The notes under the pieces were generated by a model. The model was not told the DNA's origin and did no database searches. It was given only the letters and a program-made list of their open reading frames with translations. 64,000 nt of DNA from Gautieria morchelliformis (lineage: Eukaryota > Basidiomycota > Agaricomycetes > Gomphales > Gomphaceae): assembly GCA_015179125.1 (NCBI GenBank), contig WHVA01000222.1, positions 108,346 through 172,345 of the forward strand, written 5' to 3'. Within the stretch, counting starts at the first letter, position 1; every line of letters begins with the position of its first letter. Positions 5,501 to 58,492 of this stretch are shown in pieces. The position numbers and the translations under genes are program-made.

Positions 5501-6777
5501 AGGGGACTGTAGAGAAATAAAAGTTACCAGCAGTGACAGACAGACCCACCAGCAGAGAAAGAGAGAGCCAGAAACAGACACAGAGAGCCAGACACAGAGA
5601 GCCAGACAGAGATCCAGATGCAGAGAGCCAGCAGCAGACAGACAGATCCAGCGGGCACAGAGACAGTGGGCAGGAGAGCCAGAGGTTGCCAGTTGAACCA
5701 GAGGAAATGGCAGCAGGAGGGTTGAGGGAAGGTGGGTGCGCGCGCAGCAGCGTTGGACGCGAACTGGTCACGTGACCAGGAGCGCTCACTGCACCGCGCG
5801 TTGTCAGTAGAAAGTTGGATGCGTGGTTTGTTTGCGTCTTAGTCAGGATTACGTAAAACGCAAACACCCCCACAACCACCCACGCACCCATCTAAGAGTT
5901 AAACGCGGGGGGTGGGTGGTTGTGGGCCCGCTGACCAATGCTTGGTCATTAGTTTGTCAGCGGAGCGCGCGAGCGGCGCAGCCGCGAGCCCTACGCCCTA
6001 CCCGCGGTTCACGCCGGTCTGCCGGCTCCAGCGCTCGAGGCTGCGCAGCGTTCTGGTGGCTCAAGCGCTCAAAGCCGCGCTGCGCTGGCAGAACACTGCG
6101 CAGCCGCTTTTGCGCACTCCACCACCACCCTCCTCTCCTCTCTGCCCTCTAGATAGAATAAAATTGCGTGAGAGTGAATTAATAGATAGCCTATATAGTG
6201 TAGACTACAAAAGATCTCTTCCCAGGGAGATCTCTGCTGTGAACTATTGGGGTTGACCCCTTCATTGGGGCAGCTTTTTCTCTGCTAAGGAGCCAGGTAA
6301 TCATCCCAGGCTGCCTTAGAGGGAGCCACAATTGCATTGCAGTTCTTTCAGTGTTGACTTGCACTACTGGTGGCTGAAGAAGACATCTCCCCAGGACCAG
6401 GACCAGGACCAGGACCTTTTACTGGAATTATTCCAGTTGGATAGCCGAAGAAGACTTGGATATTTTCATCAAAAAAATTCCCCATCCCTTCCTTGGTACA
6501 TATATTTCTCTGTGGTCTGGTGTGAGCCATCTGACATTTTTTTTTTTTTTTTTTTAAATAGAAATTAATAAATTCCCTTGACTTTGCCTAACAAACAAAC
6601 TCCCTGTCCCTTCCTTGGTATGTATGTATTTCTCTGTGGTCTGGTGTGAGCTGTCTGACTTTTATTTAATTAGAAATTAATAAATTCCCCTGACTTTGCC
6701 CAAGGAAAATTAACAACAACAGCATCTGCTTGCAAATGTAAGTTGAAGTGGGGTAGCTTGATTGTTCCTCTAAGCTT
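5501..6777 (+). other. Region upstream of the Helitron gene: short repeats and candidate 5' sequence
   Basis: In order this holds a GAGAGCCAGACACA-type short tandem repeat (about 5,560-5,660), a 16-bp perfect palindrome around CACGTG (5,764-5,779), a 14-bp inverted repeat with a 30-nt loop (5,869-5,882 and 5,913-5,926), a GC-rich block (5,960-6,130), a CCAGGA hexanucleotide run (6,391-6,416), and a tandem duplication of roughly 110-120 bp (about 6,476-6,591 and 6,598-6,701). I could not fix the Helitron 5' end (expected TC after A) within it. Confidence 0.5.
5764..5779. promoter_or_regulatory. Perfect 16-bp palindrome centred on CACGTG
   Basis: CTGGTCACGTGACCAG is fully self-complementary and contains an E-box-like CACGTG core. 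It lies about 1 kb upstream of the Helitron RepHel start and 90 bp before another inverted repeat. A regulatory role is only a guess. Confidence 0.4.
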
Positions 6778-9700
6778 ATGCCTACATTTCTCAGGGATCC
6801 TTCTACTCCAGAGAGAAATCGTCAGCAGGAGCGTGAAAGGGCAAGGGAGGAGCAAGAGGGTCATATGACGTCGCCCACTGATCGGAGAGCGCGTGCACTT
6901 GCTGCTGCTGCTGTCAGAGCTCAGGACCAGCCTCCCCCTCCACCACAGCCTTTTGCCATCCCTCGCCCTCCTCCTAGAAGCAATGTCGCTGATCCTTTTC
7001 AACAACCTGTGGCTGGGCCATCACGTCCTCCTATCCTTGCAGGGCCACCACGTCCTCCTATGCCTGCAGGGCCGTCACGTCCTCCGGATCCCAGTCCTGG
7101 ACAGCAGGTGGCAGCCCTGCGTGCTCAGTTAGCAGCAATCCCAGCAGCACAGCCTGTGAGAAGATACAGGCAGGAGCCTATACGGCCACCTCCCAATCTT
7201 CCTGTGGTTGGTTCTGCAGGAATTGCACAGTTGCGTGCTCAGGCTGCTGAGCAGTCTGCTATATTGCAGCAATTGGGAAGAGGTAGACAGGCAGCTAATC
7301 CTTCTGTAGTAGGTTCTGCAGGAGTGGCAGCATTGCCGGCTCAGGCCAATGCAATAAGACCAATGCCTCGGCTACTCCCTGCGCTTCTGCAGCCTCTTCA
7401 GCGACTCCCTGCACCTCCTCAGCCTCCTCAGCAACTCCCTGCACCTCCTCAGCCACCTCAGCCACTCCCTGCACCTCCACAGCGTCTTCTGCCACTCCCT
7501 GCACCTCCTCAGCATCTTCTGCCACTCCCTGCACCTCCTCAGCCTCCTCAGCCACTCCCTGCACCTCGGCAGCGTCCTCAGCAACCTCCTCCTCCTATTC
7601 CACTTGGTCGCTCTAGAATAATCGAGGCAGATGTGCAGCGTCATGATTTGGGTCCCATGGTTATTTCCTGCCCTGACTGTAAAGCATTGCACTGGATGGC
7701 AGAACGCCTGCAGAAATCCTCAAATGTGCGGCCCAGGTTTGGTGATTGCTGTATACAAGGAAAGGTGCAGCTTCCAGAGCTGCCAGTGCTCCCTCAGCCA
7801 TTGAGACGGCTCTTAGAGGGCCAGGACCCTGAGGCCAAACAGTTTCGCCAGAACATCAGGCAGTACAATGCTGCATTTGCATTCACTTCCTTGGGAGCCG
7901 AGTTTGATCTAGATTTGCTTCGGGAGGGTCGTGGTCCATATGTCCTCAAGCTGCAGGGCGAACTGTATCATATTCATGGCTCTCTCATCCCTAACCCTGG
8001 GAGGCGGATACAGTATGCCCAACTTTATATATATGATCCAGCATTGGCTTTGGAACAGAGGAACACGCGTAACCCAGGTCTGTCTCCAACTATCATGGGA
8101 GACTTGCAGGAAATGCTCCTCTTATGCAATCCTCATGTTCCCATATATAGACAAGCGGCTGAGAGGCTCAGAGCTCAGGGACAGAATGGTGAGATCCGGG
8201 CTAGGCTCACATACAGGGAACACAGGGATCCTAGGAGGTATAATATCCCTACTGCGGATGAGATTGCGGTGGTTCTTCCTGGAGATGGCATCAACCCTGA
8301 ACCTAGGGATGTTATTGTCCAGCTCAAAGGTGGACGCTTTCAAAGGGTATCCGATATGAATCCAAACTATGCCTCTCTTCACTATGTCTTGCTCTTTCCC
8401 AGGGGAGAGTTGGGGTGGCAACCTGGTATTCGCTATCGCCAATTACCAGGCGGGCGTGAGCGAAGTGGGCATGTCACCCAAATTCAGTTCCATTCCTATC
8501 GTCTCTTCCAGAGAACAGAAGAACCTACAACACTCCTGCGCGCTGGCAAATTATTCCAGCAGTACATTGTAGACTCTTGGGCCGCTGCAGAGCAAAGCAG
8601 GCTGTGGTGGATCAGGACAAATCAACACACTCTCCGTGCTGAGATGTATAACCAGATGATGGATGCCTTTCATCGCAATGACAATGACAGAGATCCAAAC
8701 AACTTGGGTGCAAGATCCATTCTGCCTGCCACATTCCAGGGGGGGACACGGGACATGCAGGAAAACCTGCAGAACTCTCTGGCCATTTCAAGGAAGCATG
8801 GTGTGGCTGATCTCTTTATTACCATGACTGCCAATCCCAACTGGCAGGAGGTATTGGATGCATTGTTGCCCGGACAAACTCCTCAGGACAGGCCTGACCT
8901 GGTGTCGCGGGTGTTCCAGCTCAAAAAGAAATACCTCATTGACTTGATCGTCAAGGAAAAGATTTTTGGGGAAACCGTCGCTCGCGTCCACACCATTGAA
9001 TTCCAGAAAAGGGGACTCCCACACATGCATATTCTTATCTGGTTTGAAAGAGATTCCAAGATCAGACATCCACATGAGGTGGATTCAATGATTTCAGCAG
9101 AGTTCCCTGATCCAGAGACTCATCCTGTCCTCTACCGGTTGGTCTGTGAGCTGATGACACATGGTCCCTGTGGACAAATGAAACCAAACGCACCCTGCAT
9201 GGAAAATGGCAAGTGCAAGAAAGGCTTCCCAAAGCCTTTCTGTGAGGAAACCAGTCTGAATGAGGATGGCTATCCAAAATATCGTCGTCGCAATGATGGA
9301 AGGCTGCACAATGTCAGAGGTGACATGCTGGACAACAGATGGGTTGTGCCATACTCTGCCCTGCTCTTGCTCAAATTCTGGTGTCACATCAACCCTGAAC
9401 TCACCATCAATGTGAGGTGTATCAAGTATATCCACAAGTATCTCTACAAGGGTCATGATCGGACCACCATGGAGTTTGGTCGCACCCAGGATGAAATTAA
9501 GCAGTACCTGGACGCTCGCTATGTCAGTGCTCATGAGGCCTGTTGGAGGTTGCTGGAGCGGGAAATCCACACCCAGGTGCCTGCAGTCATGGCACTGCCA
9601 GTCCATGAAAAGGACCACCACACAATCATCTTTGATCCCAACCAGGATGTGGACAACATCCTGGAAAGGGCTGAGGCGAAAAAGACACCGCTCATGGCTT

Positions 9701-11772
9701 ACTTTGAGGCCAATGATATCTACCCTGAAGCACGTGATCTGCTCTATGTGGAGTTTCCTGAGCATTTTACCTGGCACTCACAGGACAAGGTATGGACACC
9801 ACGCCAAGGAGGTTATAGCATCGGTCGCCTTCACTTTGCAAACCCTAGATCAGGAGAGAGGTTTTTTGTGCGCACTCTCCTCACAGTGGTCAAGGGGGCT
9901 AGATCCTTTGAGGAGCTTAGGTCGGTGGATGGCATACAATATGCTACTTACAAGGAGGCCTGTCGTGCAAGGGGACTTCTGGATGACGATCAGGAGCTGA
10001 GGTTGTGTCTCCAGGAAGCCAGTGGCATGAAAACAGGTGCTCAGCTCAGACATCTCTTTGCCACCATCCTTGGCCATTGCAATCCATCAGGTCCTGGCAG
10101 ACTATGGGATGGCTTCAGGGAGCACATCTGTGATGATCTCAGACATCAGCTCCAAATCAGACATGGTATGCAGGATCCACAGGACGATCAGGTTTATGAT
10201 TTTGGCCTCTTTCTCTTGGAAAAAATCCTCCAGCAGGGTGGAATGTCCTTGAGCAGCTTTGATGATATGCCTCGGGTGGCAGGCGAGTGGGAGGCCCTCA
10301 TTGGAAACAGGTTCATAGCTGAGCAGAGGGACTATGACCGTGTTGAAGAGAGGAACATAGCTGATGAGGAGGTTCCCAGGCTGAATGAGGGGCAAAGGTC
10401 CACGCATGATCAGATATTACGGTCGGCACTGACCAGAGATGCTCATGGGAAACCTGATGGACAAATGTTTTTTGTCACTGGCTCAGGTGGCGCCGGGAAA
10501 TCATTCACATGGAACACTCTAATCCACTCCTGTAGAGCGGAGAGCCTCATTGTGATTGCAGTAGCCTCATCTGCAATGGCTGCACTTATCCTCACTAAGG
10601 GTACAACCTCTCATAGCATGCTTGGAATTCCCATTCCTGTCCATGAGCGCTCTTTCTCCTCCATCAAAAAGAACTCTGACAAGGCTGACATGCTGAGACA
10701 GGCCAGTCTCCTCATCTGGGATGAGGCTGCAATGCAGCATCGCCATGCCATAGAGGCCATTGACAGGACACTGAGGGATTTCCTTGACCAGCCTGACAGA
10801 CCCTTTGGTGGCATCACGGTCGCCTTTGGAGGTGACTTTCAGCAGACTCTCCCAATTGTCCCTAAAGGCTCCAAGGAGGATATCGTGGGAGCTACCCTTC
10901 AGAAGTCATATCTGTGGCCAAAGATCAATGTCCTCCATCTGACAGAGAACATGCGGGTGAGAAATGACCCTGACAGAGCCAGGTTTGCAGAATGGCTGCA
11001 GAATGTGGGCCAGGGAAAGGATCTCCCACTAGATCATACGTTCTCACTCCCTCCTCACATGGTTTGTGGCCCTGGAATTGAAGATCTGATCCAGGAAATA
11101 TACCCTGGCATTGGCAATCATGTCCCTGCCCAGGACAATTACTTTTTGGAGCGTGCCATCCTCTGTGCCAGAAACACTGAGGTCAATGAGATCAATTCCA
11201 TGGTGTTTAGGGAGTTTCCAGGTGATGCTCAGGTCTTGCACTGCGCAAATTCCATTGAAGAATCCGATGATGCAGATCGGTATCCTGTGGAGTATCTGAA
11301 TTCCATAGAGATGGGCTGTCTTCCTCCTGCTCGCTTGCAAGTCAAGCCTGGAGTGCCTCTGATGCTGTTGCGCAATTTGGATCAGAAGCAAGGACTATGC
11401 AATGGGACAAGGTTGCGGTTGGTGAGGATAAGCATTAGAGTGTTGGAGGTCAGGATCATCTCAGGTCCATGTGCAGGCAATATTGCTTTCATCCCCAGGA
11501 TCATCATTAAGCCATCAGAGGGAGAGTTGCCATTTGTGCTGCAAAGGAGGCAGTTTCCAGTGCGTTTGGCATTTGCAATGACTATCAACAAGTCTCAAGG
11601 ACAGTCTTTGGGTACGGTTGGGCTGGACCTGAGATATCCAGTGTTTGGACATGGTCAGTTGTATGTTGGTGTATCAAGAGGGACCAATTGGAACAGAGTG
11701 AAGGTCTTGCTTGAGGAGGGTTTGGACACAACCAACATTGTATATAAAGATGTATTACTTAGAGCTCCTTGA
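6778..11772 (+). CDS. Helitron RepHel protein (rolling-circle Rep plus PIF1-like helicase)
   Basis: A single uninterrupted frame of 1,664 codons encodes the transposase of a Helitron. It nicks and joins DNA by a rolling-circle mechanism and unwinds it with a SF1/PIF1 helicase. Residues ~40-280 are rich in Pro, Gln and Ala, with tandem PAPPQPP-type repeats. The Rep domain shows the HUH-type motif HMH at residues 749-751 and the Y2 motif with Tyr 884 and Tyr 888 four residues apart. The helicase shows Walker A GSGGAGKS at 1235-1242, Walker B WDEAA from 1314, GGDFQQTLP shortly after, and the C-terminal INKSQGQS and YVGVSRG motifs. The length is typical of fungal Helitrons and no key residue is missing, so it may be active. 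The 3' terminus follows at 11,894-11,922. Start chosen at the first ATG of the frame. Confidence 0.95.
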   Translation: MPTFLRDPSTPERNRQQERERAREEQEGHMTSPTDRRARALAAAAVRAQDQPPPPPQPFAIPRPPPRSNVADPFQQPVAGPSRPPILAGPPRPPMPAGPSRPPDPSPGQQVAALRAQLAAIPAAQPVRRYRQEPIRPPPNLPVVGSAGIAQLRAQAAEQSAILQQLGRGRQAANPSVVGSAGVAALPAQANAIRPMPRLLPALLQPLQRLPAPPQPPQQLPAPPQPPQPLPAPPQRLLPLPAPPQHLLPLPAPPQPPQPLPAPRQRPQQPPPPIPLGRSRIIEADVQRHDLGPMVISCPDCKALHWMAERLQKSSNVRPRFGDCCIQGKVQLPELPVLPQPLRRLLEGQDPEAKQFRQNIRQYNAAFAFTSLGAEFDLDLLREGRGPYVLKLQGELYHIHGSLIPNPGRRIQYAQLYIYDPALALEQRNTRNPGLSPTIMGDLQEMLLLCNPHVPIYRQAAERLRAQGQNGEIRARLTYREHRDPRRYNIPTADEIAVVLPGDGINPEPRDVIVQLKGGRFQRVSDMNPNYASLHYVLLFPRGELGWQPGIRYRQLPGGRERSGHVTQIQFHSYRLFQRTEEPTTLLRAGKLFQQYIVDSWAAAEQSRLWWIRTNQHTLRAEMYNQMMDAFHRNDNDRDPNNLGARSILPATFQGGTRDMQENLQNSLAISRKHGVADLFITMTANPNWQEVLDALLPGQTPQDRPDLVSRVFQLKKKYLIDLIVKEKIFGETVARVHTIEFQKRGLPHMHILIWFERDSKIRHPHEVDSMISAEFPDPETHPVLYRLVCELMTHGPCGQMKPNAPCMENGKCKKGFPKPFCEETSLNEDGYPKYRRRNDGRLHNVRGDMLDNRWVVPYSALLLLKFWCHINPELTINVRCIKYIHKYLYKGHDRTTMEFGRTQDEIKQYLDARYVSAHEACWRLLEREIHTQVPAVMALPVHEKDHHTIIFDPNQDVDNILERAEAKKTPLMAYFEANDIYPEARDLLYVEFPEHFTWHSQDKVWTPRQGGYSIGRLHFANPRSGERFFVRTLLTVVKGARSFEELRSVDGIQYATYKEACRARGLLDDDQELRLCLQEASGMKTGAQLRHLFATILGHCNPSGPGRLWDGFREHICDDLRHQLQIRHGMQDPQDDQVYDFGLFLLEKILQQGGMSLSSFDDMPRVAGEWEALIGNRFIAEQRDYDRVEERNIADEEVPRLNEGQRSTHDQILRSALTRDAHGKPDGQMFFVTGSGGAGKSFTWNTLIHSCRAESLIVIAVASSAMAALILTKGTTSHSMLGIPIPVHERSFSSIKKNSDKADMLRQASLLIWDEAAMQHRHAIEAIDRTLRDFLDQPDRPFGGITVAFGGDFQQTLPIVPKGSKEDIVGATLQKSYLWPKINVLHLTENMRVRNDPDRARFAEWLQNVGQGKDLPLDHTFSLPPHMVCGPGIEDLIQEIYPGIGNHVPAQDNYFLERAILCARNTEVNEINSMVFREFPGDAQVLHCANSIEESDDADRYPVEYLNSIEMGCLPPARLQVKPGVPLMLLRNLDQKQGLCNGTRLRLVRISIRVLEVRIISGPCAGNIAFIPRIIIKPSEGELPFVLQRRQFPVRLAFAMTINKSQGQSLGTVGLDLRYPVFGHGQLYVGVSRGTNWNRVKVLLEEGLDTTNIVYKDVLLRAP

Positions 11773-13990: not shown

Positions 13991-14590
13991 CACATCGTGC
14001 AGAGAAGGCAAACAATGGTATTCCTCTAGCACAGGCTTTCCTGGAAACATCTTTCATAAGACGAAAGCCGCAAGCTTTGTGGTTTCATGGTCTTCAAAAT
14101 ATTTGACGCTCTTTAGAGTTCCATAGGTCGATCTTTCATGCACATTTGTAGTGAGCGTGGCTGCTGGGATTAATTAAGGCACAGTTGTCTGTATTGTCGT
14201 GGACAATGCCAAAGGAATCAGAGGGAAAATATCTTGTTGAAGCCCTAAAGGGGAATCGCCGAAGTATCCTGGCACTAATTGCTATTTTTGCATGTCTCTC
14301 GAAAAGGAAATCACTTGGGTGGGCCTTAAATTCTTGTAAAATACATGTAGCAGCCCGTCGTAAATACACATACATGTATGTATATACAACTATACGGTTC
14401 ACATGCACCGTAAGCCTACTCCAAGTACAGTGCACAAGAACCATATGTCCTCTCCACATACACCACCATTTAAAATTGAGGTTTTGACGGCCTGTTACTG
14501 AGTGTCTTTGGAGGGAGTCAACACTGGTCTGTAGGAGCCGCATGTAGAACCTCTCAGTAAGGTTTGTAATAAAGTTAGCTGGGCCTTTTC
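13991..14590. other. No supportable gene
   Basis: Short overlapping frames only. Local ATGTATGTATATAC-type sequence near 14,370-14,390 is simple repeat. I see no domain, promoter or intron structure. Confidence 0.5.
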
Positions 14591-15212
14591 AAATGCACTG
14601 CCTTTTTTAAACCTGTCGCACACAGTGTCTCAGGATGCTCCTCACCAAGGTCCCTCTTGCTTGCCTCCATGACTTGAACCTCCAGTTCTTCAGCATCCTT
14701 CCACTGGCCCAGACTCTGGTAGGTTCCAGCAAGGTTGGCCATGGCCCTCAGTGTGTCAGGATGCTCCTCACCACAGACCCTCTTCCTTGCCTCCATGACT
14801 TGAACCTCAGGCTCTTCAGCATCCTTCCACTTGCCCAGACTCCGATAGGTTGCAGGAAGGTCAGCAATGGCAGCCAGTGTGTCAGGATGCTCCTCACCAC
14901 AGACCCTCTTCCTTGCCTCCATGACTTGAACTGCCAGCTCTTCAGCATCCTTCCACCAGCCCAGACTCCAATAGGTTCCAGCAAGGTTGGCCATGGCAGT
15001 CAGTGTCTCGGGGTGCTCCTCACCAAGGTCCCTCTTGCTTGCCTCCATGACTTGAACCTCCAGCTCTTCAGCATCCTTCCACTGGCCTAGACTCTGATAG
15101 GTTGTAGCAAGGTTGGCCATGGACCTCAGTGTGTCAGGATGCTCCTCACCAAGGACCCTCTTGCTTGCCTCCATGACTTGAACCTCCAGCTCTTCAGCAT
15201 CCTTCCACTTGA
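14590..15212 (-). pseudogene. Fragment of a TPR-repeat protein (kinesin-light-chain-like repeats)
   Basis: On the minus strand about four and a half 42-residue tetratricopeptide repeats follow each other, with the recurring cores GEEHPDTL, MANLA-TY-SLG-W and DAEELEVQVMEA. This repeat type forms the C-terminal half of many fungal NB-ARC or hydrolase-TPR proteins, where it binds protein partners. Both ends are abrupt: the first repeat begins inside its helix at about 15,212, and the last breaks after GEEHPETL into an unrelated tail with a stop at 14,575-14,577. No start codon or N-terminal effector domain is seen. Repeats are very similar at DNA level, suggesting recent internal amplification. 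It looks like a captured or broken gene piece. Confidence 0.7.
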
Positions 15213-17071
15213 TGCTTTGAACGTTTGAACACTATGCGACCACAGTGTCTGTGACGTCTGCGATTCATTCAGGTTGTGTATAATGCTGTGGTGCAAGGGA
15301 CAGCGATGTATACACCTATCACGCCGCTTCTTGCAAGTACTACACTGTGATATAGAGAAATTGCTGGGAACAGCGCACAATGCATCTCTGGGAAAGATTG
15401 GACTGGGGCAGCGTGCAGCGAACAAACCAGAAACCTGAAAATGAGAAAACATAAGTCTCCACTTATCATCTTCGACGACAACTAGCATCCCCAGAATTGT
15501 ACCACCCCGCCTCGTCTCCCGGAAGAACATGTAAGCTGACTCACATTCAAACCTACCCTACGCCTCTTTGCATCCCAGTGTCATTCAAAGAAAAAATGCG
15601 ACGCATACCGAATTCAAGTACCTTACCATCCATGTGAGTCATTCCACTGCTTGAACTGGTTGAGTTTTGCTCCTTCCTTGGTTGTTTTGAACCCGCTTCA
15701 CGCTCTGCAACTCCTTTCGTGCCATGGTAACTAGAATCTGAGACAGTGTTGATGTATCGTTGTGTTTGGCATGATTTGTGGATCCAAACAAACATGATGC
15801 TTAGTCCCTTCACGACAGGACCTACACGGACCACTCCCATCCACGCCATAGACATCACCAAGGTGCCTCGCCTCGGGGTGCGAGGCTTCAGATTATACTT
15901 GCTACGAAAGTTAAACTGTCCTTGGAAGAGGAGGAAATGATACGACATGATCCCACATGGGTAATTGAAGGCCAGCTCTCACTTGAAACCGTGCACACTT
16001 GGCATAGGACCAGAACGATGTAACTGAAGCCCTAGGGCCCCACAACCCGCAGGTCAACACTACCACCATGCATCGCGGTCGCTAGGATAAGATACGTATC
16101 CGAAGTAGAGGCGAGATGAGGCCCGTCGATGATTGGTTCCTTTTAGGGACTACATGCCATGCGATGCCATGGAGGTGTGGAGGCATGGAGACGGCAATGG
16201 TGGGGAAGGCGGAGAAGGAGCAGAGTGAGAAGTGAAGCAGAGTTAGGAGTCAGGCCGCCCTGTACTCGGACAATAGTGTCTGTGTCGTGAGCCTGCACGA
16301 GCTTGAATTAGTCTTTCTTGTCTTTGACTGCTCTTCTCACGACCTTGGGCTTCAAGGCTACGGGCGTCGTGTTTCCTTGGTACCTTATGATGGGGCTCGA
16401 CTTAGGTATGCTGTATAGAACATGCAGGGTGGCAGACGTAAGTTTCAAGCAACATCCTGTGAAAGGGCATCATCACCTCTAACCCCATTCTCAGCATTCC
16501 CCATGCCCGGACCGATTGACCCCCCTGTACGTCTTTCAAGGTGCCAAGGGTTGACACCTATACATGCGCTGTATCATTGTAACTCGAGTTTCTTTTATTT
16601 CTCACTTCTGTAAGGCCACCTGTTTATTCCTTCTCCCAGCATGTGTGTTCCCATGGGGTTTATTATCAATCCTTGGTCTTAACCATTTCACAGTAAAAAT
16701 GGACCACTTTCCCCCATCGCCCTGGAACTAATTTATGATGCTTCCATAGTTGGCCTAATCATGGCCAAGAGTTGGAAAGACAGGTCTCTCAATGGAATGA
16801 GGGGTCGGGGCCAAAACTTGCGGACCATTACAGTAAGGACGGTAAGTCATCTACTTCAAGTCCTGTAAGTCATGGGCCAGTCTTCAATAATGTGCTGCGA
16901 ACACATTTTAGTGTTATATTTTCCACTATGTTCACCTGGTTATGTCAGGGCCTTTTTGCACCGGTGAGTGTTAACGTATGGATGGGTGTAGAATTATAAT
17001 ATGAACTTTGAAGATCAGCTGGCACTCAAGCTGGTAAATGCCCAGTAAGTCCCTCTAGTCACTGTCTGGTC
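15213..17071. other. No confidently supportable gene
   Basis: A minus-strand frame of 131 codons (15,553-15,948) and shorter frames downstream could be exons of a host gene, since GGTAAG- and CAG-type splice sites are scattered among them, but I recognise no domain and cannot build a continuous frame. From 16,000 to 17,071 no long frame exists. The right limit is the target duplication CAAGG (17,072-17,076) of the next insertion. Confidence 0.4.
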
Positions 17072-25300: not shown

Positions 25301-25524
25301 CGAGAGACACGCATTACTAATACAGCCGGTTCTGCTCTGCGGGCTGCCCTGAGGCTGTCAACGCACGAGCTGGTGCCTAGCCAACCGCGGACGGTTCACG
25401 AAGGCAAAGAGAGAAGGGAGCGCAGGCTGGCAGGTCCCTCGACGGTTAGATGCGTGAAAATCATAGATTTAAACCACAAACAATGGCTTGGCTACGGTTG
25501 AAAACTCAGAAGCACGACGCAATA
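22359..25524. other. No confidently supportable gene; repeat-derived and intergenic DNA
   Basis: Short frames only. A minus-strand frame (22,353-22,559) has an acidic DDSEDSDDEY stretch but no recognised domain. A dispersed repeat copy lies at about 22,909-22,985. At about 24,066-24,075 a TATATAAG box precedes a long pyrimidine-rich stretch (CTCTCTCAC, CCCTCTCACCC), the look of a fungal promoter or LTR, but I find no gene downstream. The right end is the AATA target duplication of the CACTA element. Confidence 0.4.
22909..22985. repeat. Dispersed repeat fragment, copy 2
   Basis: GATGCCGCATTTAAACGACT and its neighbours match the segment at 33-112 in the same orientation. CACGTGA pairs upstream (22,652-22,672) also match sequence upstream of copy 1. 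Family unknown. Confidence 0.5.
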
Positions 25525-25587
25525 CACTGTAGAAAACTCCGACATTAGATTTCGGTACCTTTTACACAAACGGTAATATTCAGTACC

Positions 25588-25669
25588 TTTGAGCACTGAC
25601 AAATCAGTGCTCAAAAATATCATTAAATGAGCACCAAAAATAAGTGCTTTGGAGCACTGAATTTCAGAT
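25588..25669. repeat. CACTA left subterminal repeats with a 12-bp palindrome
   Basis: TTTGAGCACTGA (25,588-25,599) and TCAGTGCTCAAA (25,604-25,615) form a perfect 12-bp stem with a 4-nt loop. GAGCACC, AAGTGCT and GAGCACTGA follow within 55 bp. The right subterminal region (about 31,815-32,055) has AAGTGCT, CACTGAAA and AAGTGCTCC. Such clustered motifs are the usual binding sites for a CACTA transposase or its partner protein. Confidence 0.7.
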
Positions 25670-26084
25670 ACTAAAAAACATGCAAGTATGTGAAAAAAAT
25701 TTTTTGAAACGCGATCGCCCTCTTCACTCGGCCGTCATAGCCCCACTTAGACATCCATCCACAGAGGTTGTATATCGTGCAAGCCGAGTGATTATGCGCC
25801 ATAGGGCCGATGAATCCGGAAAGTATTGGCCGTTGAACTGTTTGCTGGAATCGGATGGTGCGTGGACGGCGATGGAATTGACCATGGTGGAGAGATGCTC
25901 GCGGGTGAAGGTATCAATTTGAAATTGGAAAAGTCGCAGCCGTGGGTCAGTCGGGGGTGCCTCGGGGAGGAACTCAGCGTGCAGTTGGCTGGCCTTAGAT
26001 CGACAGGCTGCAGTGATTGTGCGTTGTAGGTTAGTGACGTACAAGTTAATGTACATAAATGCCAGATATACGCACCAGATTCCT

Positions 26085-29000
26085 CTATTGCTCCTCTTGC
26101 TGCACGGGATCCACGAAGACTGTGCGTGCATAGTCTCCACTCCTGTCCACGATTCCCCACTCGTTACCTCGCCTGACTCGTCCTACCACGCACTCAACTG
26201 TGCGTAAATCAATCACGATCGGCGCCGTGGTCAAAGAGTAAGTGGTTACAACTTTGGTTGCATCCCGACCGCCTGTCGAACAAGGCATCACCAGGGCGAG
26301 GAGGTGACGTTTCGGCATCGCGATGTTGATACATGGTGCGCGACGTAGGACAACATCGATGATGCTTTCTAGTTGTCCATAGAATATCTGACGTATTTGC
26401 TCTGGTTCCGAGTCGCGTCCACGACGGTGATTTTGCACAAGGAGCGTGTACTACTCACGAGATTAGCCACAGATATGGAAACTTAGCAGGGTGAGAAGTA
26501 ACACACGCGGACAAAGGAAGAGTCGCGTGTAGTTTCAGCTTGGGCCTGGCTGACGGCACATGCAGCGCATATCTTGTCGCCACCATTAGCTATTCTTACC
26601 TTACCCCATTGGGTCATTGTCTCTGGTAGTACAGCTCTGATGTCCTTAGCCTCACATGTGTAGAGCAATGTGAGGTATTGACAGAGTCGTCGTCGCATGT
26701 CCACATCTGGCTTGAAGTTGAACTTGCGAGGGGCTCGAAGGATAGAATTGGGGTCTATCCATTGGCGATCAACCCCAGTGAGCAGATAATAGTATATGAC
26801 GCACATTCAGGGTAAGTCACTTCTGTAGATTTCAGCGCTCCCTCCATCGCACCAGATGACAGGTGATCCCAAACCCGTTGGTAGCATACTTTCAGCTGAG
26901 AAAGTTGTGCTGACCGCTTCATGTACATTGCAAGTGTGGCGTATGGATGGAGGCGTGAGTTTATACGAGATGAAAGCTTGCCGCAATAGCGTTCCATTGG
27001 GAATGCCCATGTAGTCCACCCAGGGCCACAGCGTCGGATGTATTCAGGCACATGAAGCAATGCATGAATGTTGAACGTGCATGCGAGCAAATTGGCTTCT
27101 TTGTAGCCATAATACCACCTGAAAGGAGATGTGAACTCGCCAAAGTGCGATCGGATTGAACATTGCACATACTTTTCGTATTGAGTAACCCATTTAATAA
27201 TCTTCCCTTCAAGGTCATCTATCTCCCCATGAGTAATAGAGAACTGTAAAAGGATCTTGATGATAGCCACTAGATCACAAAAGTGTCGGTAATACTTGTC
27301 CTTGGGGAAGCGGCCCCGAAGAACGAAGGGTCCGACATATTGAACCCAGAACGACCAGAACTCCGCCTTGTACTTTGAGTTTGATATGTCAGGGAGTGCG
27401 CCGACAAATTCTGAAGGAAGTGTCTTGTGGGCTTCTGCGGTTTCGAGGCCAATCTGCTCCCAAACACTTTGGGCTAAACGGTAGCCGGCATCAGCTGGTT
27501 CGATACCTTTGAATTTCCCTGAGCCCGTCCATTGTTGTTGTAGTAATGGACATATATTTTCGAAAACCAAGTGCATTAGATCGTGAGGGAAAGAATCGGG
27601 GAAGGACAGGCCGGGAATCCGGAGGACCTTGGAAAGACGATTAACGCCGTAGTGGGTCGAGAGTCAATCCCGATGGCGTTGAGTGTCAGCCTGTGCGATC
27701 TCAATTAGCTGGTCTTGCAAGGTGGCTCGGGTGCGTAATGGCAGCTCGCAGGGATTCCAACCATCGTCCTGGTTTGGTCCAGGGTGCCGTGGGGCACGTA
27801 AAGCAGCGTAGTAAGTCACCTTGTTGTTCCGTTTCATCGGCGATCCTCTGATCATACAGAGCCTGCAGGGTGCGTAACCGTTGTGGCCTTTCAGGCACAG
27901 GAACTTGGACATGGCCGGCAGGTCACCAGAGAACAAAATTAGGTATGCATGGAGATCAAAACTTGCACCAAGTTGGGCATCATAGGTGCGTACTCCGTGT
28001 GCGAGCTTGTATAATTCTTCTCGCAGTGGGATGAAAAAGGAGTCGAGGAGTTTGGGAGAATGGGGGCCAGGGATAACAGCAATCGGGAATAAATTTTCGA
28101 GCCGAGTGCGTATTTCAGGGGGGAGGTTGAAGTTGATCAGAATAATGGGCCATGCAGAATTGCTCTTCTTCTTTCCCAAAGCAGGACGAACAGCAAAGAC
28201 CTAGTTCCATCGTTCAGTCATTCAGTTAGTGTAAGATATGTAGATGTGACGTACCTGGAACCCATCAGTGGAGCCACCAAGCGCTATGTCTCTGCTGTCG
28301 GAGAAATATTTGTGACCAAGCCGTGCACCCTCCACTTCAACGTAGGCGTGGAGTAGACTTTGATAATGTGACCCGTCGAACACATCACTTACTTCACCCT
28401 CGATCGATTCACGAGTGGCTCGGTACTTCAGCCGCTCAATCATCGGCAGTGACTCATACCAGGCTATAAGTCGAGGTATGATCGGGAGGTAGGGGAATCG
28501 TGCGATTGGTTTACCATTAGCATGGTAGCGAGGTCGGTGGCACTCGGGGCAATGCGTGTCATCCTTGTGTGAGTCCATGAATAGGCAGCATGACCGATCA
28601 CACATGTCATAAAAGATCGGGGTAACGCCTGATAGTAGTTCTATCCGTCGATACATAAGATATTCTGTGTCCATATTGAGCTTGTGCCGAAAGAAACGGC
28701 GGAGGTTGTTGTATGTTGACCGAGGGAGACCGGAGCCTTCCATGCGCAATGCGAATGCACTAATATGGTCCATATCATCATCAGTAAGTTCATGCTCGCC
28801 TAGATATCCCACTTAGTAAATATGTCACACAAGCTTCACACACTCACGTAATTCATGCAATTGAGCTTGCCATTCGTCACCATATCGTTCTTGAAGGACA
28901 CGAACAGATTGTCTTCGGTGATGTCATCATCGTATTCTTCTTCCTCTTCCTCCTCCCCCTCTGATTCATCTTCATCTTCCTCCTCAACCTCGATGTGGCC

Positions 29001-29294
29001 CCATGGGAATGGTTGGTCATCTTCAGACTGTCCCGTGTCCGAGTCCGAGTCTGAGGTCACTTGAGCAACAGTATCAGTGTGGTCTGAGATTGGATCTTGA
29101 TCAACTGTGTCATCGTCAGGTTTGTAGTTTGCAAAGTCTGGTTGACTGTGCCTGTCGGCTCCACCGTCTGATCCGGATTCTGAGGGGTCAAGCGCTCTAG
29201 CTTTTTTTAGAAGGTGTCGGTGTCGTCGACGTTGGCGACTGCTGATAGGTTTTGTGCATGTAGGAATACACAGACATGGGCGGGTGTCTGGCAT
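26085..29294 (-). pseudogene. CACTA Tnp2-type transposase, one premature stop codon
   Basis: Five exons on the minus strand give about 1,000 residues: 29,294-28,848, about 28,812-28,255, 28,200-26,805, 26,754-26,507 and 26,450-26,085. The N-terminus has a Cys-rich CLCIPTCTKP and a long Asp/Glu stretch. Then come CPECHRPRY, ALGGSTDGF (first acidic position), LINFNLPPE, GDLPAMSKFLCLKGHNG with a CRLC motif (second), and DLMHLVFEN (third), then FPMERYCGKL, all usual for Tnp2/Transposase_21 proteins. Introns 2-4 use GTACGT, GTGCGT and GTGTGT donors and keep the frame. Two problems: an in-frame TGA at 27,664-27,666, and a first intron whose standard GTGAGT donor leaves the frame off by one, so a GTGTGT donor 4 nt further on, or a lesion, is needed. 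It would bind and cut the element ends in the nucleus. Confidence 0.85.
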
Positions 29295-29454
29295 TATGCT
29301 ATGTGCGTAGTCCAAAATTTCTCCAAGTGATTGAATCTCCGATGCAATAGAAATTCTAACTCCATTCTCCCGACCTCCACCCCGACTAACAGAAAAGAGG
29401 CTTCAACACGTTTTCACCAATCTTAGTCGTGTCCATTCTCAATAACTTGGCATA
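29295..29454. promoter_or_regulatory. Divergent promoter region of the CACTA element
   Basis: The 160 bp between the ATG of the transposase (29,294, minus) and the ATG of the companion gene (29,455, plus) must serve both genes. I see no clear TATA box. The head-to-head layout suggests coupled expression. Confidence 0.55.
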
Positions 29455-31423
29455 ATGGAGCGTGCCACAAGGAAAATGCAAAGTGAGTCTCATATTTGTG
29501 ATGTTATCGCGCGATCAATCCCCGCTCAACACCCTTACACGCATGTGCCAAAGGGCTCATTGAACAGATGATATCTGAAGGATTGGACCCCAAGACAGTG
29601 TTTCATTCGATTCCTAATGGTATGTCTCATTTCAAGTGAATACGACTCGCATGTAATGCACTGATATTGATGCTATGTCATAGCCGCTACTTCTCCTCCT
29701 GTGGACAACGACCCTGAAGACAGCGACTCAGGCAGATCTGAACTTACACCCCCTCCCTCCCACTATGACCCAGAACACAGCCATCAACCTGAGTCCATGG
29801 ATATTGACAGCAATTCTGGGGACATGTCTGAGGACGAAGAGCCATCATTTATTCACCCAGGTGACGTTGCCAGCCCTGATCATGGAAATGACAGTGCCCG
29901 TAGCAATAGCGATGACTCAGAATCTGAGGATGATGAAGATGATAACGATGATCGCAGCAGCAGCGATGACAACAGCAACCGCATCAATCATGACCAGCCA
30001 CCGAAAAATGAGAAGGCACGCATGGAGCAGCATGCCGACTTCACCCTGCTGGAACTTGAGAATAGCACAGGGCACATCGAGAAAATTCCGAAACCGGCGG
30101 GCACTGGTGGCCGTGACTACAATATTCGTGAAATGATGGGACTTGGAGCTGAGACTTCAGCGAATGCAAATTGGTACAGGGACATCTCGGTGAGTTATAA
30201 TTGAGGTACAAATATAAATATAATGATTTGTTCTTCTAGCGTTCTGTTCGTGAGTTCGCCAATAAATATCTCGATATACATCAATGCATGCGCAAGCAAC
30301 AACGCCGCCATCAAATGCTTGTGGATGAGAATGTAAGTCCTTATCTATGTATAAGTAGTCACCTCGGGATTGATGTAATGTATATAAACCAGGTGTTGCG
30401 AGTCCACCCTGTGCTCAGGCACTTCGACAACACCTGGCCAATTTATGCGCTTACCCAACAGTATCTCAAGAATATGGTCGAGCAATCACGGCAAGCGAAG
30501 AAGCGCAATGACAAACGAGTGTCCCACGAAGAGCCTACATCTGGGAATGCCACCGAAATCACCTCGACCACCAGCGTTACCATGCCTGTGTCCAGTTCCA
30601 AATCCAAGACGAAGAAGAAGGCCCATACGATTGTGGAGGTTGCGTCACAAGATGGCATAGGTAAACACACTCCAAAGGTGGCGAAGCAATGCCAGCCTAC
30701 TGTCAAAGTACGTATTCACTGCTACTCATCTCACTGTGGTCTAACCACGTTGCATTCTTACTTCACAGGCTCCATCGAAGGACAACACCACCAAGGGGAA
30801 ATCGGGTCACAATACCTCCCAGGTGATTTCATCGATAGGCGGTGTAGATTTCTTTTAACGAGATCCATTCTATAAGGACAAGCCTTCGAAATCCAAGAAA
30901 ACAGTCCGCCCCAAGCCTAACTACAAACCACCTGACAACCACGACATCAATCTCGATCTCGAGACCCTAGGGGTTAAAAAAACGAAAGGTAAACAGAAGC
31001 AAGCACCTCTCCCTGTCCCTCCTGCCGTCAATGTCTCAAAGAAGAGTGCAACAAACTCTATCAAGAAAGCCAAGAGGAAAATCATCGAAGACAGTGTTGA
31101 GGATGGTGTTGGCCCGGTAAGTCTGTCATTCCTTCGATTACATATTTTGATGCATTTATATATAGTCCAAACGCTACAAAACAGTCGATTCAATCCCAAA
31201 GAAGACCATAGAAGTAAAGGTAGGCCTATTATTATGCTCCTGGATGTCAAACTATGCTGATATCGCACAGGTGGTTCCGCCGGCACCATCTACATCTGCA
31301 GCCACTGCTGATGGAGCCAGGAAGTCCCAGCGCAAGGTAAGTAAGTGTATTCGATGCCGTTGCGCTATGCTGATGGAGACATAGTCGATCCCGTCTGCTA
31401 GAGCTCGTGGTGCCAACCCATGA
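29455..31423 (+). CDS. CACTA companion protein, ten exons, unknown function
   Basis: Ten exons with canonical GT-AG introns join into one open frame of 486 residues: 29,455-29,482; 29,554-29,619; 29,684-30,189; 30,240-30,332; 30,393-30,707; 30,769-30,822; 30,877-31,116; 31,166-31,219; 31,271-31,336; 31,385-31,423. The start is MERATRKM. Residues ~35-115 are rich in Asp, Glu and Ser; a central part has NIREMMGLGAETSANANWYRDI and VLRVHPVLRHFDNTWPIYAL; the C-terminal third is Lys/Pro/Ser-rich with many KK pairs, as in nuclear or DNA-binding tails. No enzyme motif is visible. It lies divergently from the transposase inside the same terminal repeats, so it is probably an element-encoded accessory factor comparable in position to TnpA-like proteins, but I see no sequence basis for homology. 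The open frame across ten exons argues it is or was recently functional. Confidence 0.8.
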
Positions 31424-32067
31424 TGCTCTCGAACCCTCCCCCCTCTTCTATTACTTGGTACCTGCGTAGGCCATTTTTCATTGTATCTGCCCCACACTGA
31501 CTACGTAAAATACAGATAGACCCATGTTCTTGCGCAAGCCGCACCAGCTCTCACAATATGTCCCCTCGGCTGCCCTCACTCCCACAATAGACTGCTCCTG
31601 CCCTCACTCTGCTCGTGCTCAAACTCGATCTTGCTCTTACACTCAAGCTCTCGCTCTCGCAATATGTTCCCTCGGCTGCTCTCACTCTCCCAATATATCG
31701 CTTCCGCTCTCGCACCTGTCTCTACCGGCCATCAGCTCTCGTCTCTTCTATGATGGTTTGTAACTGCATGTGTCCATTTCATTGTTCACACTAGCTTTCA
31801 ATCAATGTATCTCTAAGTGCTTTTTCAGTAATAGAAAGTACTGTTTTATTGTGTTCTAGAGTACTATTTATAAGTAACTTAGGAGCGGAAAACCAGTGTT
31901 CTAGGACACTGAAAGCGGACATTCTAGCTACTAGATTTCGGTACGCAGCTTATCGAGAGGAAGCGTCAAAAATCCGCTCCCCGGTTACTTATTATCAGTA
32001 ACTTGGGCACTGAAAATTTGGTGCGTAATGTACTTATATTAAGTGCTCCGAGTTACTGCAGTGAATA

Positions 32068-33346: not shown

Positions 33347-33415
33347 CATAAAAGTGCATCTTGCAGACATCGGTTTCTCCAGCCTTACTTCCTTTATCCC
33401 CTGACAGATCTTCTA

Positions 33416-34267
33416 ATGGCCTTCAAGTCTTTCGTTGCTTTCCTCTGCATTGCCCTTGCTGCTCACGCCACGACCACTGGCCGTGTCAAGTGTCCAGATG
33501 GCAATGTAGCTTCCCATTCTGCTTGCTGCCCGTTTTTCACCCTTCGCAATGACCTGCAAAATAACACGTAAGGTGTTGCTTCTGGGTTGCACAGCTCAGT
33601 TAGCTGATCAATTATTTAGTTTTTCATACCAGTGCGGTGAGGACACTCATGAGACAGTTCATCTCAGTTTCCGTTATTAGACCATTTCCAGATGACGGTG
33701 GTGTACATTTACTTACTCTAGCATTCTTCTCTTTCAGAAGATGCCATTGCATTCTCGCCAGCCCTAGAATATCAGGGGCTTCCAGCTGGTGGAGTTGCCG
33801 ACGGTTCTATGCTTACTTTCCCCAACTCAAGCTGAATTTCCACGCAAACCTCGGGATTTCTGACAGCGTTGAACTACTTACCCCCTTCCTCCACAACCAC
33901 ACCCAGGTCTCTGCAGGTGACCTCATTCAATTCGCTGCTGCCGTTGCTATTGGCAACTGTCCTGGTGCTCCCAAGTTGGAATTCATGGCCAGGCGTCCGA
34001 ATGCCACAGCCCCTGCCCCTGATGGTCTAATCCCTGAACCCCAGGACTCAGTCGATAAGATCTTTGCCCGTACAAAGGATGGTGGAAACTTCTCACCTGA
34101 TGAAGTGGTCGTCTTGCTAGCATCCCACTCCATTGCGAGAGCAGATCACGTTGACCCCTCAATCAAGGCTGTTCCCTTTGACTCGACGCCTTTCACCTTC
34201 AACACTCAAGCTTTCCTCGAGGTTTTGCTGAAGGGTACTGGATTCCCCGGAAGTCCAAACAACACTG
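33416..34267 (+). pseudogene. Class II manganese-peroxidase-like gene, decayed and truncated
   Basis: Exons 33,416-33,567, 33,620-33,672 and 33,738-~34,266 encode a secreted haem peroxidase of the fungal lignin-degrading class. The signal peptide is MAFKSFVAFLCIALAAHA, followed by a mature start with CPDG and a CC pair. The two Glu of the manganese site are kept (GEDTHE), as are the proximal-His motif [13 protein letters not shown], the segment DSTPFTF and [13 protein letters not shown]. Three lesions mark it as dead. The distal Arg and His of the usual R-x-x-F-H motif read H and Q (HLSFQDA). A one-base frameshift lies near 33,830 between DGSMLTFPN and LNFHANLG. Everything after NNTG at 34,267 is replaced by AT-rich DNA. 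The usual length is about 360-390 residues; only about 260 are represented. Confidence 0.85.
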
Positions 34268-37942: not shown

Positions 37943-40111
37943 AAAGGAAAATTGTAAAGATGTGGATCTTAAGCCTTGTGTCACAAGAACACAACAGAAC
38001 TTGACCAATGTGTGGTATTCTGAATGCTACGTAGTGACAGTGTAAGGTGAGATGCGATGGGAACCGCTGACCGGTTCCCATGCATAAACTATACAGTGGG
38101 TCCCTAAGGGGCCACTGGGATCAGGTAATAACTAGTATACATACATGGATACATAGGTTATTTACACCCTCCCCCTCTATAGACAACTATAGGGCACTGT
38201 CTAGGACTCATAGAGGTCATCCATAGGCTCTTTTGTAGCTCTCCTCTCTGCACCTTGTATTTCAGGCATACGAAGAGGAAGTGGTGTACAGTCTCTGCCG
38301 CTCTCCTACACGCCGGGTATAAAGGGGTGTCGACTTTCCCTATCTTATGCAGGTGTTTGTTCAGCGGTATGTGTCCCGTTCTGAGCTGTATGAGAAGCGT
38401 CGCCTGTCGTCTTGGGAGTCCAGCACTGAGTCTAGAGTACGCTGCAGAGGGCATGGACGGGTCAACTTTATGCGCAAATCTCGCTCTGGGGGACTTAGCA
38501 AACATCACTTTAGCCTCCTGCTTAAGCTCTTTGTGGTGTCTCTGAAGCTCCGCTGCTTTACTGGTCAGTAGTCTTCCTCTGCACTCGATTGGGATGCTCG
38601 TCTCTTCGGAGGATGCTCCTCTGGCGGCTTTTTTGGCTTCCTCATCCGCCCTCTCATTCCCTCTTATCCCCTTGTGTCCCGGTACCCACCGCATGTGTAC
38701 CTTTGTTCCCGTCTGCCAGTGTGTGACCCCCTCGATCTGTCGGTGCAGTGCGTTAACCAGGTACTGACCCGATATCTGCTTTTCCTGCCTCGTCGTCCGT
38801 ATGGCCACCTGATTGTCTAGACTTATGACGTAGCCGCTTTCCCTTTCCATGTTTAGGAGCTTCGCTCCTAGAGCCGCCCTGACCACTTCCGCCTTCGAAG
38901 ACCATGTGCTCCTGTCCTGTTCCTAGATAGAGTCTCACTGCCTTTGTCTCTATGCCGTCTCTGTAGAGTACTGCTGCCGCCCCGACTCCCGTGTCCACGC
39001 ACGACCCATCCGAGAATATCTGCACACTGGTCCGATCGGCTGCAAGCTCCGCGGTGGCTTGTTTCTCGTCCGGGGGTATTCGTATGTCGAAAGTGGGCAT
39101 CCACTTTGGGCGGTAGGTGACTGTCTGTATCTTTTCCATGTTGTTCGGCTCTATGTTGAAGGTTCGCATGATTTCGTGTAGGGGGCTTCGATGCTTCTTG
39201 ACGTAACGGCGCGCCGCCCTCTGGACTTTCGGTGCGAGTGGGTGTTTATCCGGGAGGCACGCTAGGCGTATGGCTGCTCGATGAACGATCTTTGACACGA
39301 GCAGTCGGAAAGGCAATAAATTGGCGTGTGCGTCTATGGTGTCCGTGGCGGTTGTCCTCATAGCCCCTGTTATCGTCAGCCCAGCCTGTCGTTGGATTCT
39401 AGAGAGCTTGTTGATGTGTCCCTTTGACCCTTTGCTACGTGCTGTGCTCGGTATGAGGAAGATATCCGCTGCATACAACATCCTTGGTACCGCAACGGCC
39501 AAATAGAACTGGCGCATGTGTCTTGCTGCGGTCCCCTTGGTCGGCTTAGCTTGTCTCCTGTATTGCCCCACGAATTTCTCTCCTTTCGCCAGAGCGTAAT
39601 TGACGTGTTCTTTGTAGCGCAGTTCCTGATCCACTATGATGCCTAAGAATTTGTGGGAGGTGGAGGGGTTTATTGTATGATGGCCAATTTTTATCGTGGG
39701 GCGTGTCAAGGGCCTAGTCTTCCTGGTGTGTGACGGGTCCGTTTCTCGTCTCCTGGTAAAACCGATCAGTGCAAACTTCTCCACTGCAAAGTGGCACTCA
39801 TGGGTGTCTGCCCAACTCATTGCGCCGCCTCTCCTCATCATCGTGTCTTCTAGCTTGCTGAAGGCTTCGATGAAGTCTCTACCATCTGCGATCAGCGTAG
39901 TGTCGTCCACAAATCCTACGCAGTCTTCGCCATTCTTGCGGTTCGCAGTTTCGATTAAGTCGGCGTTGTAGTACTGATAGGCGATGGCTGAGAGCGGGCA
40001 GCCTTGATCCATGCCTCGTCCTATCTCCCACATGTGCGTGTTGTAATCGTCAAAGCTTACCGTCGTTCGGCGGCCCTGTACCTTCCGTTTGATCCACTCA
40101 AGGGGATCCGG
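37943..40111 (-). mobile_element. 5'-truncated LINE with ORF2 remnant, flanked by CTAGCTC duplications
   Basis: CTAGCTC occurs at 37,936-37,942 and again at 40,112-40,118, directly outside the LINE sequence, and is taken as a 7-bp target duplication. The 3' tail (low coordinates) is the same family tail found after the ORF1-only copies at 22,108-22,358 and 61,600-61,854. The 5' end is truncated inside the reverse transcriptase and abuts a Plavaka-like fragment. Confidence 0.8.
38158..40103 (-). pseudogene. LINE ORF2: reverse transcriptase C-terminal part and RNase H, frameshifted
   Basis: The minus strand begins inside the reverse transcriptase (LEWIKRKVQGRRTTVSFDDY), then GMDQGCPLSAIAYQYYNADL and the catalytic GFVDDTTLI (near 39,915), thumb-like sequence, and an RNase H domain starting VQIFSDGSCVDTG. 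An extra base near 38,899 shifts the frame; the RNase H continues in the next frame with ISLDNQVAI and HMRWVPGHKGIRGNERADEEA. A final Cys-containing segment (PACRRAAETVHHFLFVC) follows. Order RT then RNase H is that of Tad-like fungal LINEs. The endonuclease and N-terminal RT are lost. In another frame the end reads EPMDDLYES, matching the LMDDLYE end of ORF1 in the other copies. Confidence 0.9.
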
Positions 40112-51312: not shown

Positions 51313-51996
51313 CTAAGTCTTGCTACCGTGATGGACCTCCAGGAGCGTAGCTTTTGTGGAATGTCCTTTGGAAACTGCTGCTTCCAGCGCAGTTCCATAC
51401 GGCCCGGCTTCTGCGGCTACGTCAGCCCCCTCTTCCAGCAGTAGTTGAACAACAGCATCATGCCCAGCATACGACGCTGCCTGCAGCGCACTTCCATGCT
51501 CACAACCTCGTGCGTTCATGCTCGCGCCCCTCTCCAGGAGTAGTTGAACCATCTCATAATGACCATTAAACGCAGCTGTCTGCAGTGCACTGCCATATTC
51601 TGCTCCCTGAAAGTCCACTTCCGCGCCCTCCTCTAGAAGTAGTTGAACGGTCCTATGGTGGCCTTCCGCTGCTGCCGCCTGCAGCAGACCTTCACATATT
51701 TCTGTGTGCAAATTCACATCTGCACCCCTCTCCAGGAGGAGTCTGACAATCCCATCATGGCCATTAAATGCAGCTGCCCACAATGGACAGCCATACTCCC
51801 CTCCCAGGTTTGCATCTGCACCCTTCTCCAGGAGTAATTGAACCATCTCATAATAACCATTAAATGCAGCTATCAGCAGTGCACTGCCATATTCTTCTCC
51901 CTGCAAGTTCACATCTGCGCCCTTCTCTAGAAGTAGTTGAATGGTTCTATAGTGGCCTTCTAATGCTGCTGCGTGCAGCACACCGTGCAAATTCTG
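51313..51996 (-). CDS. Ankyrin-repeat protein, C-terminal part
   Basis: The minus strand encodes about six and a half consecutive 33-34-residue ankyrin repeats with the core G-x-ALQAAAFNGHYEMVQLLLEKGADVN. The last repeat reads ALEAAVSKGHSTKATLLEV and is followed by a short tail HHGSKT and a stop. Ankyrin repeats bind proteins; in Agaricomycetes such repeats often follow a NACHT domain. None is visible here. The frame has no ATG at its 5' end and starts behind a CATAACAG acceptor-like site (about 51,998), so an upstream exon is likely, but the next 1 kb is AT-rich and non-coding. It may be an intact 3' exon or an orphan fragment. Confidence 0.75.
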   Translation of the reverse strand, partial: QNLHGVLHAAALEGHYRTIQLLLEKGADVNLQGEEYGSALLIAAFNGYYEMVQLLLEKGADANLGGEYGCPLWAAAFNGHDGIVRLLLERGADVNLHTEICEGLLQAAAAEGHHRTVQLLLEEGAEVDFQGAEYGSALQTAAFNGHYEMVQLLLERGASMNARGCEHGSALQAASYAGHDAVVQLLLEEGADVAAEAGPYGTALEAAVSKGHSTKATLLEVHHGSKT

Positions 51997-57949: not shown

Positions 57950-57962
57950 ATAGGCGATGTCA

Positions 57963-58486: not shown

Positions 58487-58492
58487 GATGGA

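Follow-up and report, generated by a model that had tools for sequence, protein, structure and literature searches.

A two-gene CACTA-like transposon of Gautieria morchelliformis with a conserved, divergently transcribed companion gene

The interval 25525-32063 of the window, by which we mean the whole 64,000-nucleotide stretch of Gautieria morchelliformis DNA analysed here, is confirmed as a genuine Tnp2-type transposon, CACTG-ended and AATA-flanked. It is probably a two-gene CACTA-like element in which the companion gene, judging from its arrangement, conservation and charge, encodes a TnpA-like end-binding partner of the transposase. Because related elements keep the back-to-back gene arrangement, the companion is probably part of the jumping machinery.

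The ends that the initial annotation had placed at 25525 and 32063, with AATA on either side, are borne out on a second reading, and the further copies and the empty site that it had proposed to look for are present in the genome. The assembly searched comprises 122 Mb in 1113 contigs, and all counts given here come from this one genome. The limits of the element are as follows.

25521-25524, no strand: target-site duplication AATA, left (flanks and an empty site with a single AATA)
25525-32063, no strand: whole element, 6539 bp, CACTGTAG...CTGCAGTG (end comparison of copies)
25525-25532, no strand: 5' terminal repeat CACTGTAG (end comparison)
32056-32063, no strand: 3' terminal repeat CTGCAGTG (end comparison)
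32064-32067, no strand: target-site duplication AATA, right (flanks and empty site)

Copies are numerous, with at least 41 matches to the 5' 601 bases and at least 41 to the 3' 601 bases. Thirty fetched copies retain both ends. An exact 4-bp duplication flanks 25 of them, and no copy has more than 4 bp; of the remaining five, two have 3 bp, two have 4 bp that differ at one position, and one has no duplication. One more copy, which lacks the 5' end, was kept out of the count. The C592 and C162 copies share flanks, and when they are counted once the figure becomes 24/29. These two (L027 and L029) represent the same insertion, with identical flanks on two contigs and 99.3% identity, so that some contigs of the assembly are probably allelic or duplicated. 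When the two flanks of the window copy are joined, they match a continuous stretch at C938 with one AATA. A second empty site is found at C595, where the joined flanks of the C970 copy match a stretch with a single ACGG. The duplications and the empty sites thus show that the element inserts by transposition, with a stagger of 4 bp. The ends CACTGTAG and CTGCAGTG recur in a distant element at C196, whose 4-bp duplication is CTTA.

In the C176 copy both genes are open, and its minus strand encodes a transposase of 1000 amino acids in five exons separated by GT-AG introns of 48-56 nt. Mapped on the window, the gene reads as follows.

28848-29294, minus strand: transposase exon 1; the window copy alone lacks 1 nt near 28904 (copy comparison)
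28255-28799, minus strand: exon 2, ending at STDGFQ, the first D (C176 gene model)
26805-28200, minus strand: exon 3, with SGDLPAM (second D), CRLC and HDLMH, and a premature stop at 27664-27666 (C176 model, copy comparison)
26507-26754, minus strand: exon 4 (C176 model)
26085-26450, minus strand: exon 5, with the stop codon (C176 model)

A frameshift near 26805 common to the copies was considered and rejected, since a 50-nt GT-AG intron restores the frame. The motifs of the C176 model follow each other in the order STDGFQ, SGDLPAM, CRLC and HDLMH, which correspond to both D residues of a presumptive catalytic DDE triad, to C(2)C and to H(3)H. The Tnp2-type assignment made initially rests now on a match to the Pfam family PF02992, for which the C176 model has an E-value of 1.1e-20 and 74.2 bits against a cut-off of 28.6, and the window transposase fragment 65.2 bits. 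An AlphaFold model of the transposase core, built from three sequences, had a mean pLDDT of 33.6 and was not interpreted.

The companion gene is read in the opposite direction from the other side of a short spacer.

29295-29454, no strand: 160-bp spacer between the divergent start codons, presumed shared promoter (coordinates)
29455-29482, plus strand: companion exon 1 (spliced frame; 28 nt also in C196)
29554-29619, plus strand: exon 2 (spliced frame)
29684-30189, plus strand: exon 3, with the acidic part and the beginning of the conserved core (spliced frame, core alignment)
30240-30332, plus strand: exon 4, core (spliced frame, core alignment)
30393-30707, plus strand: exon 5, core end WPIYALTQQYLKN, then basic part (spliced frame, core alignment)
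30769-30822, plus strand: exon 6 (spliced frame)
30877-31116, plus strand: exon 7 (spliced frame)
31166-31219, plus strand: exon 8, SKRYKT (spliced frame, C196 alignment)
31271-31336, plus strand: exon 9 (spliced frame)
31385-31423, plus strand: exon 10, PSARARG, with the stop codon (spliced frame, C196 alignment)

Re-splicing of 29455-31423 reproduces exactly the continuous ten-exon frame of 486 codons that had been described: 1461 nt, including the stop codon, with nine GT-AG introns of 48-71 nt. The GT and AG of all nine introns are kept in five other copies compared. The predicted protein has an acidic stretch (residues 41-140, pI 4.05, 32 D/E per 100), a conserved core of 130 residues (141-270) and a basic tail (271-486, pI 10.2). 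The core follows the pattern GTGGRDY-IREMMGL...LRHF--WPIYALTQQYLKN.

That the companion has no known domain, as first suggested, agrees with the profile searches, in which nothing convincing was found in Pfam or the PDB. No Pfam family reaches its curated cut-off, and the lack of a recognisable DNA-binding domain among these families counts against a role as partner; no PDB chain is convincing, and the core has no match among plasmid records. Two PDB matches to a profile of the core (best E 0.41), as well as four weak Pfam families for the C196 companion (E 0.23-1.2, all below cut-off), are taken as chance.

The genomic distribution of the two genes ties the companion to the transposase. Companion loci were collected by protein searches with the window companion and the C679 core, and Tnp2 loci with both a protein query and the Pfam model. 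Members of the window element's family and a diverged C548 copy were dropped, small fragment rows at companion loci already entered were not recounted, and the companion counts are lower bounds. Among the matches listed, 30 of the 50 distant companion loci have a Tnp2 match no more than 15 kb away, against about 2% expected at random places, and 28 of the 30 are in divergent orientation. The initial annotation had suggested searching for such co-occurrence, and it is found as divergent pairing at 28/50 listed distant loci, with one Tnp2 type. A first count, with the window companion alone as query, had placed at least 21/25 loci within 10 kb of Tnp2 and at least 20/25 in divergent orientation.

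The search for Tnp2 yielded 79 rows, and 74 were used after removal of four own-family rows and one overlapping row. They were divided into types by the start of the Pfam match, a proxy for the window-element intron rather than a tree, and four fit neither type. Among the companion matches listed, a divergent companion accompanies at least 27 of the 38 rows of the window type, none of the 32 rows of the other type, and one of the four unclear rows. The companion therefore appears to belong to one Tnp2 type, although a companion of the other type may have diverged beyond detection. Several counts weigh against a partnership with the transposase: 20 of the 50 listed distant companion loci have no Tnp2 match in 15 kb, two of the near ones are not divergent, and 11 of the 38 window-like Tnp2 rows have no companion among the matches listed. 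Loci on C723, C83, C782 and C751 are among the 20 without a Tnp2 match within 15 kb; such loci are possibly decayed elements, solo copies or even host-adopted genes. Judged from its linkage to Tnp2, the companion is a conserved gene of the element.

An element-encoded and selected protein need not be part of the transposition complex. The companion could instead be an anti-silencing factor or a transcription activator, like the TET/JBP genes found in other transposons of fungi. The acidic residues 41-140, with 32 D/E of 100, resemble an activation region, and silencing-related genes are carried by known fungal transposons according to the available portion of PMC12730594. Nevertheless, linkage to one Tnp2 type (27/38 vs 0/32) better fits a transposase-matched partner, and no enzymatic domain was found in the companion with Pfam, so we regard this alternative as unlikely.

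A TnpA-like partner would act at the subterminal regions, where the following features are found.

25546-25558, plus strand: TAGATTTCGGTAC, which repeats part of the 3' 25-mer in direct orientation (sequence comparison)
25591-25658, no strand: subterminal cluster at the 5' end, GAGCAC/AGTGCT repeats of either orientation (word count)
31917-31941, plus strand: GGACATTCTNNCTACTAGATTTCGG, a 25-bp candidate binding site for a protein, at 122 bp from the 3' end (genome motif search)

The subterminal GAGCACT-type repeats reported earlier are indeed enriched over shuffled ends. Counting GAGCAC, AGCACT and their complements, with overlapping words counted separately, there are eight such words in the 5' 200 bases, three in the 3' 330 and two in the 6009-base interior, and in 2000 shuffles of both ends the mean was 0.65 and the highest count 6. 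The signal is much weaker at the 3' end than at the 5' end, which speaks against an end-binding partner.

The 3' end is marked by the 25-bp site GGACATTCTNNCTACTAGATTTCGG, which occurs at 136 sites in the genome (at most two mismatches), while a reversed-pattern control has none. It lies 121 bp from the 3' end of the C196 element as compared with 122 bp in the window element, and these two 3' ends otherwise have only short words in common. The site is located downstream of the companion at no fewer than 5 of the 25 loci checked; 18 sites, among the 100 of 136 listed, were compared with these loci, and they include every listed site that shares a contig with one of the 25. By position subtraction, it is also found about 3.2 kb beyond the companion matches C176:64511 and C341:79555. 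Among the fetched loci L013-L069, TAGATTTCGGTAC is found in the first 60 bases of 38/41 5' ends (at most two mismatches) and the 25-mer part at 41/46 fetched 3' ends, counts which show retention within that set only, as the loci were fetched for matching ends.

There are several types of internally deleted copies, which keep both ends, have lost most of the transposase and, in most cases, have duplications of their own. Such deletion derivatives are as expected for copies moved in trans. In L050, L051 and L053, elements of about 2.17 kb, the sequence shared with the window element is limited to about 204 bp at the 5' end and 276 bp at the 3' end; the interiors are mostly unrelated, and the retained end parts hold the subterminal repeats. 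At L015/L016 (C847), L018/L019 (C515) and L024/L025 (C315) the matched ends are about 10-13 kb apart, and these copies presumably contain other inserted sequence.

Subterminal repeats kept in copies with other interiors would also suit a companion that binds the ends purely as a repressor, for self-regulation, and is dispensable for movement. TnpA of En/Spm represses its active promoter, besides being essential for transposition, as stated in the accessible text of PMC1636069. A pure repressor would be expected to be lost often, yet the companion stands beside 27/38 transposases of the window type, which makes a purely repressive role quite improbable.

In the reading that we favour, a companion acting with the transposase, one promoter in the 160-bp spacer would serve both genes. 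The transposase would cut at the CACTG ends and insert the element with a 4-bp stagger. The companion, with its acidic middle, conserved core and basic tail, would enter the nucleus, bind the subterminal sites and, with the transposase, bring the ends together like TnpA in maize En/Spm; like TnpA, it would perhaps also regulate the promoter. A broader proposal can be put forward only tentatively: the companion might be a new family of transposition proteins, a non-homologous counterpart of plant TnpA and an obligate partner of one fungal Tnp2 type. It would recognise the near-invariant 25-bp 3' site, and partner and transposase together might define a lineage of CACTA-like elements whose ends are CACTG and whose duplications are 4 bp.

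The window copy itself was first called complete, which holds for its structure but not for its coding capacity, as the transposase has a private stop and a private frameshift. The stop at 27664-27666 is a base substitution without counterpart in the three other copies that cover it (C176, C970 and C545), and the 1-nt deletion near 28904 is absent in 15/15 fetched loci covering the position. Because its transposase carries these two lesions, the window copy is not autonomous. It now groups functionally with the deletion derivatives, though its companion frame is open, and if still mobile it would use a transposase supplied by another copy. The C545 transposase, compared with that of C176, has single-base gaps in exons 1 and 3, and its exon 5 is without a match. 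The loss could be an assembly error in a fully autonomous copy, since one lesion alters the length by 1 nt, a change that assemblies often introduce by mistake and that is missing in all 15 covering loci, and the window copy differs little from C176 otherwise (a total of eight differences, with both lesions counted). The second lesion, however, is a substitution that creates a stop and is absent in C176, C970 and C545, and we consider an assembly error very doubtful.

Conservation of the companion extends well beyond this family. In a spliced alignment of the window companion to C196, the first exon is also 28 nt and the junctions on both sides of exon 4 are kept. The alignment scores 692. Eight shuffles reach 75-157, the reverse complement 95 and seven unrelated parts of the window 89-205, and the loci on C788 and C679 score 552 and 500. 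The core is 47% identical to C196 and 49% to C679. The C196 companion has a short last exon ending in SARARG-HP, and its model consists of 11 pieces with two stops, so this copy looks decayed.

The initial annotation took the open ten-exon frame as a sign of selection. This part of its argument stands between families, where selection is well supported by the divergent linkage and by the shared core, and has modest support inside the family. When the window, C176 and C970 copies are compared with C545, C592 and C162, the dN/dS of the companion by NG86 is 0.27-0.36, a value set aside as proof of selection because a context-matched neutral expectation gives a weaker signal. This expectation places the observed types of change at random in matching context, and thereby allows for transition bias. 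Fixed differences include 8/21 nonsynonymous changes against 13.5 expected (P = 0.010), and six pairwise tests give P of 0.028-0.187, a range counted against the companion as a partner. Frameshifts in four of the six near-complete companion copies (C970, C545, C592 and C162) are likewise counted against it; that of C970 is a 1-nt frameshift in exon 3. Recent decay and older constraint are both visible in the companion copies. That the frame is a matter of chance, or a captured host gene without function in the element, is barely credible: the four frameshifted copies of six and the lack of a domain match would fit, but neither chance nor a one-off capture would account for distant homologs that share most of the exon layout, nor for the divergent placement seen in many elements.

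Several other features are found in the window. A gene start at 33413-33571, 1.35 kb past the element, resembles manganese and related class II fungal peroxidases (PDB 1mnp, E 2.9e-4); a longer frame at this place has no match in Pfam. A peroxidase gene of this kind might point to a mushroom-forming fungus that decays wood or litter. An open Helitron protein of 1671 amino acids, with Helitron_like_N and PIF1 helicase domains and without a stop, occupies 6757-11769. Overlapping open frames at 38161-40111 (minus strand), with an RNase H match and a reverse transcriptase match just under the curated cut-off, are perhaps a LINE. A reverse transcriptase fragment at 57914-58513 (minus strand) belongs to the RVT_2 family, the type found in copia-type elements. 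Tetratricopeptide-repeat and ankyrin-repeat reading frames are located at 14578-15231 and 51316-51996 (minus strand).

The usual target-site duplication of CACTA elements is 3 bp. In the present family the duplication is 4 bp in 25/30 copies and 3 bp in 2/30, and C196 has 4 bp; the element is therefore named CACTA-like rather than standard CACTA. By its PF02992 match it possesses the Tnp2 (Transposase_21) transposase that characterises EnSpm/CACTA. Its termini are CACTG rather than CACTA, as are those of CNIRT6, which its authors class as CACTA in the available text of PMC12810828. The CMC/CMCT group is defined, in the portion of PMC12730594 available, by 5'-CA..TG-3' ends in most cases and duplications of 2-5 bp. 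The ends (CACTG..CAGTG, with 4 bp in 25/30) agree with this definition, and the group's C(2)C and H(3-4)H motifs follow the second D in the C176 model.

The plant CACTA system En/Spm, with TnpD (Tnp2) and TnpA, is alike, as far as the available accounts go, in its Tnp2 transposase, CACT- ends, subterminal repeats, second protein (TnpA, available parts of PMC2613891 and PMC1636069) and many internally deleted copies. It differs in having 3-bp instead of 4-bp duplications and CACTA instead of CACTG ends. The companion has its own divergent gene, whereas the second protein of En/Spm arises by alternative splicing of one transcription unit; the companion is also without a known domain match. CNIRT6, a CACTA-type element of the fungus Cryptococcus neoformans, likewise ends in CACTG and has a CMC transposase. 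It differs by its 3-bp duplications, and the text of PMC12810828 that was available names one transposase gene and does not mention a companion. The fungal EnSpm, Plavaka and ESTA families (CMCT), as far as PMC12730594 was available, have mostly CA..TG ends, C(2)C and H(3-4)H motifs and duplications in the 2-5 bp range of the group. They differ in that duplications are 2 or 3 bp and the added gene discussed for them is TET/JBP, and Plavaka further in its ends, TGT or CATCA.

Outside plants, Transposase_21 transposons also include SmTRC1 and fungal TRC sequences. The schistosome element SmTRC1 differs in its repeats, which start with CCC, and in its 2-bp duplications in 7/14 copies. In the accessible part of the same source (PMC1636069), the authors expected a TnpA-like role for the second schistosome protein and report no match to it in fungal elements. 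Our search, which covered published papers and was judged largely from the starts of abstracts, met with no fungal companion of this kind. Among CACTA elements, second proteins are known from a few plant systems and are mutually little alike where compared, for example TnpA and TNP1 in the available text of PMC2613891. As one genome here holds two-gene elements, Tnp2 elements without a detected companion, and a candidate binding site, the need for a partner and the co-evolution of partner and ends become directly testable.
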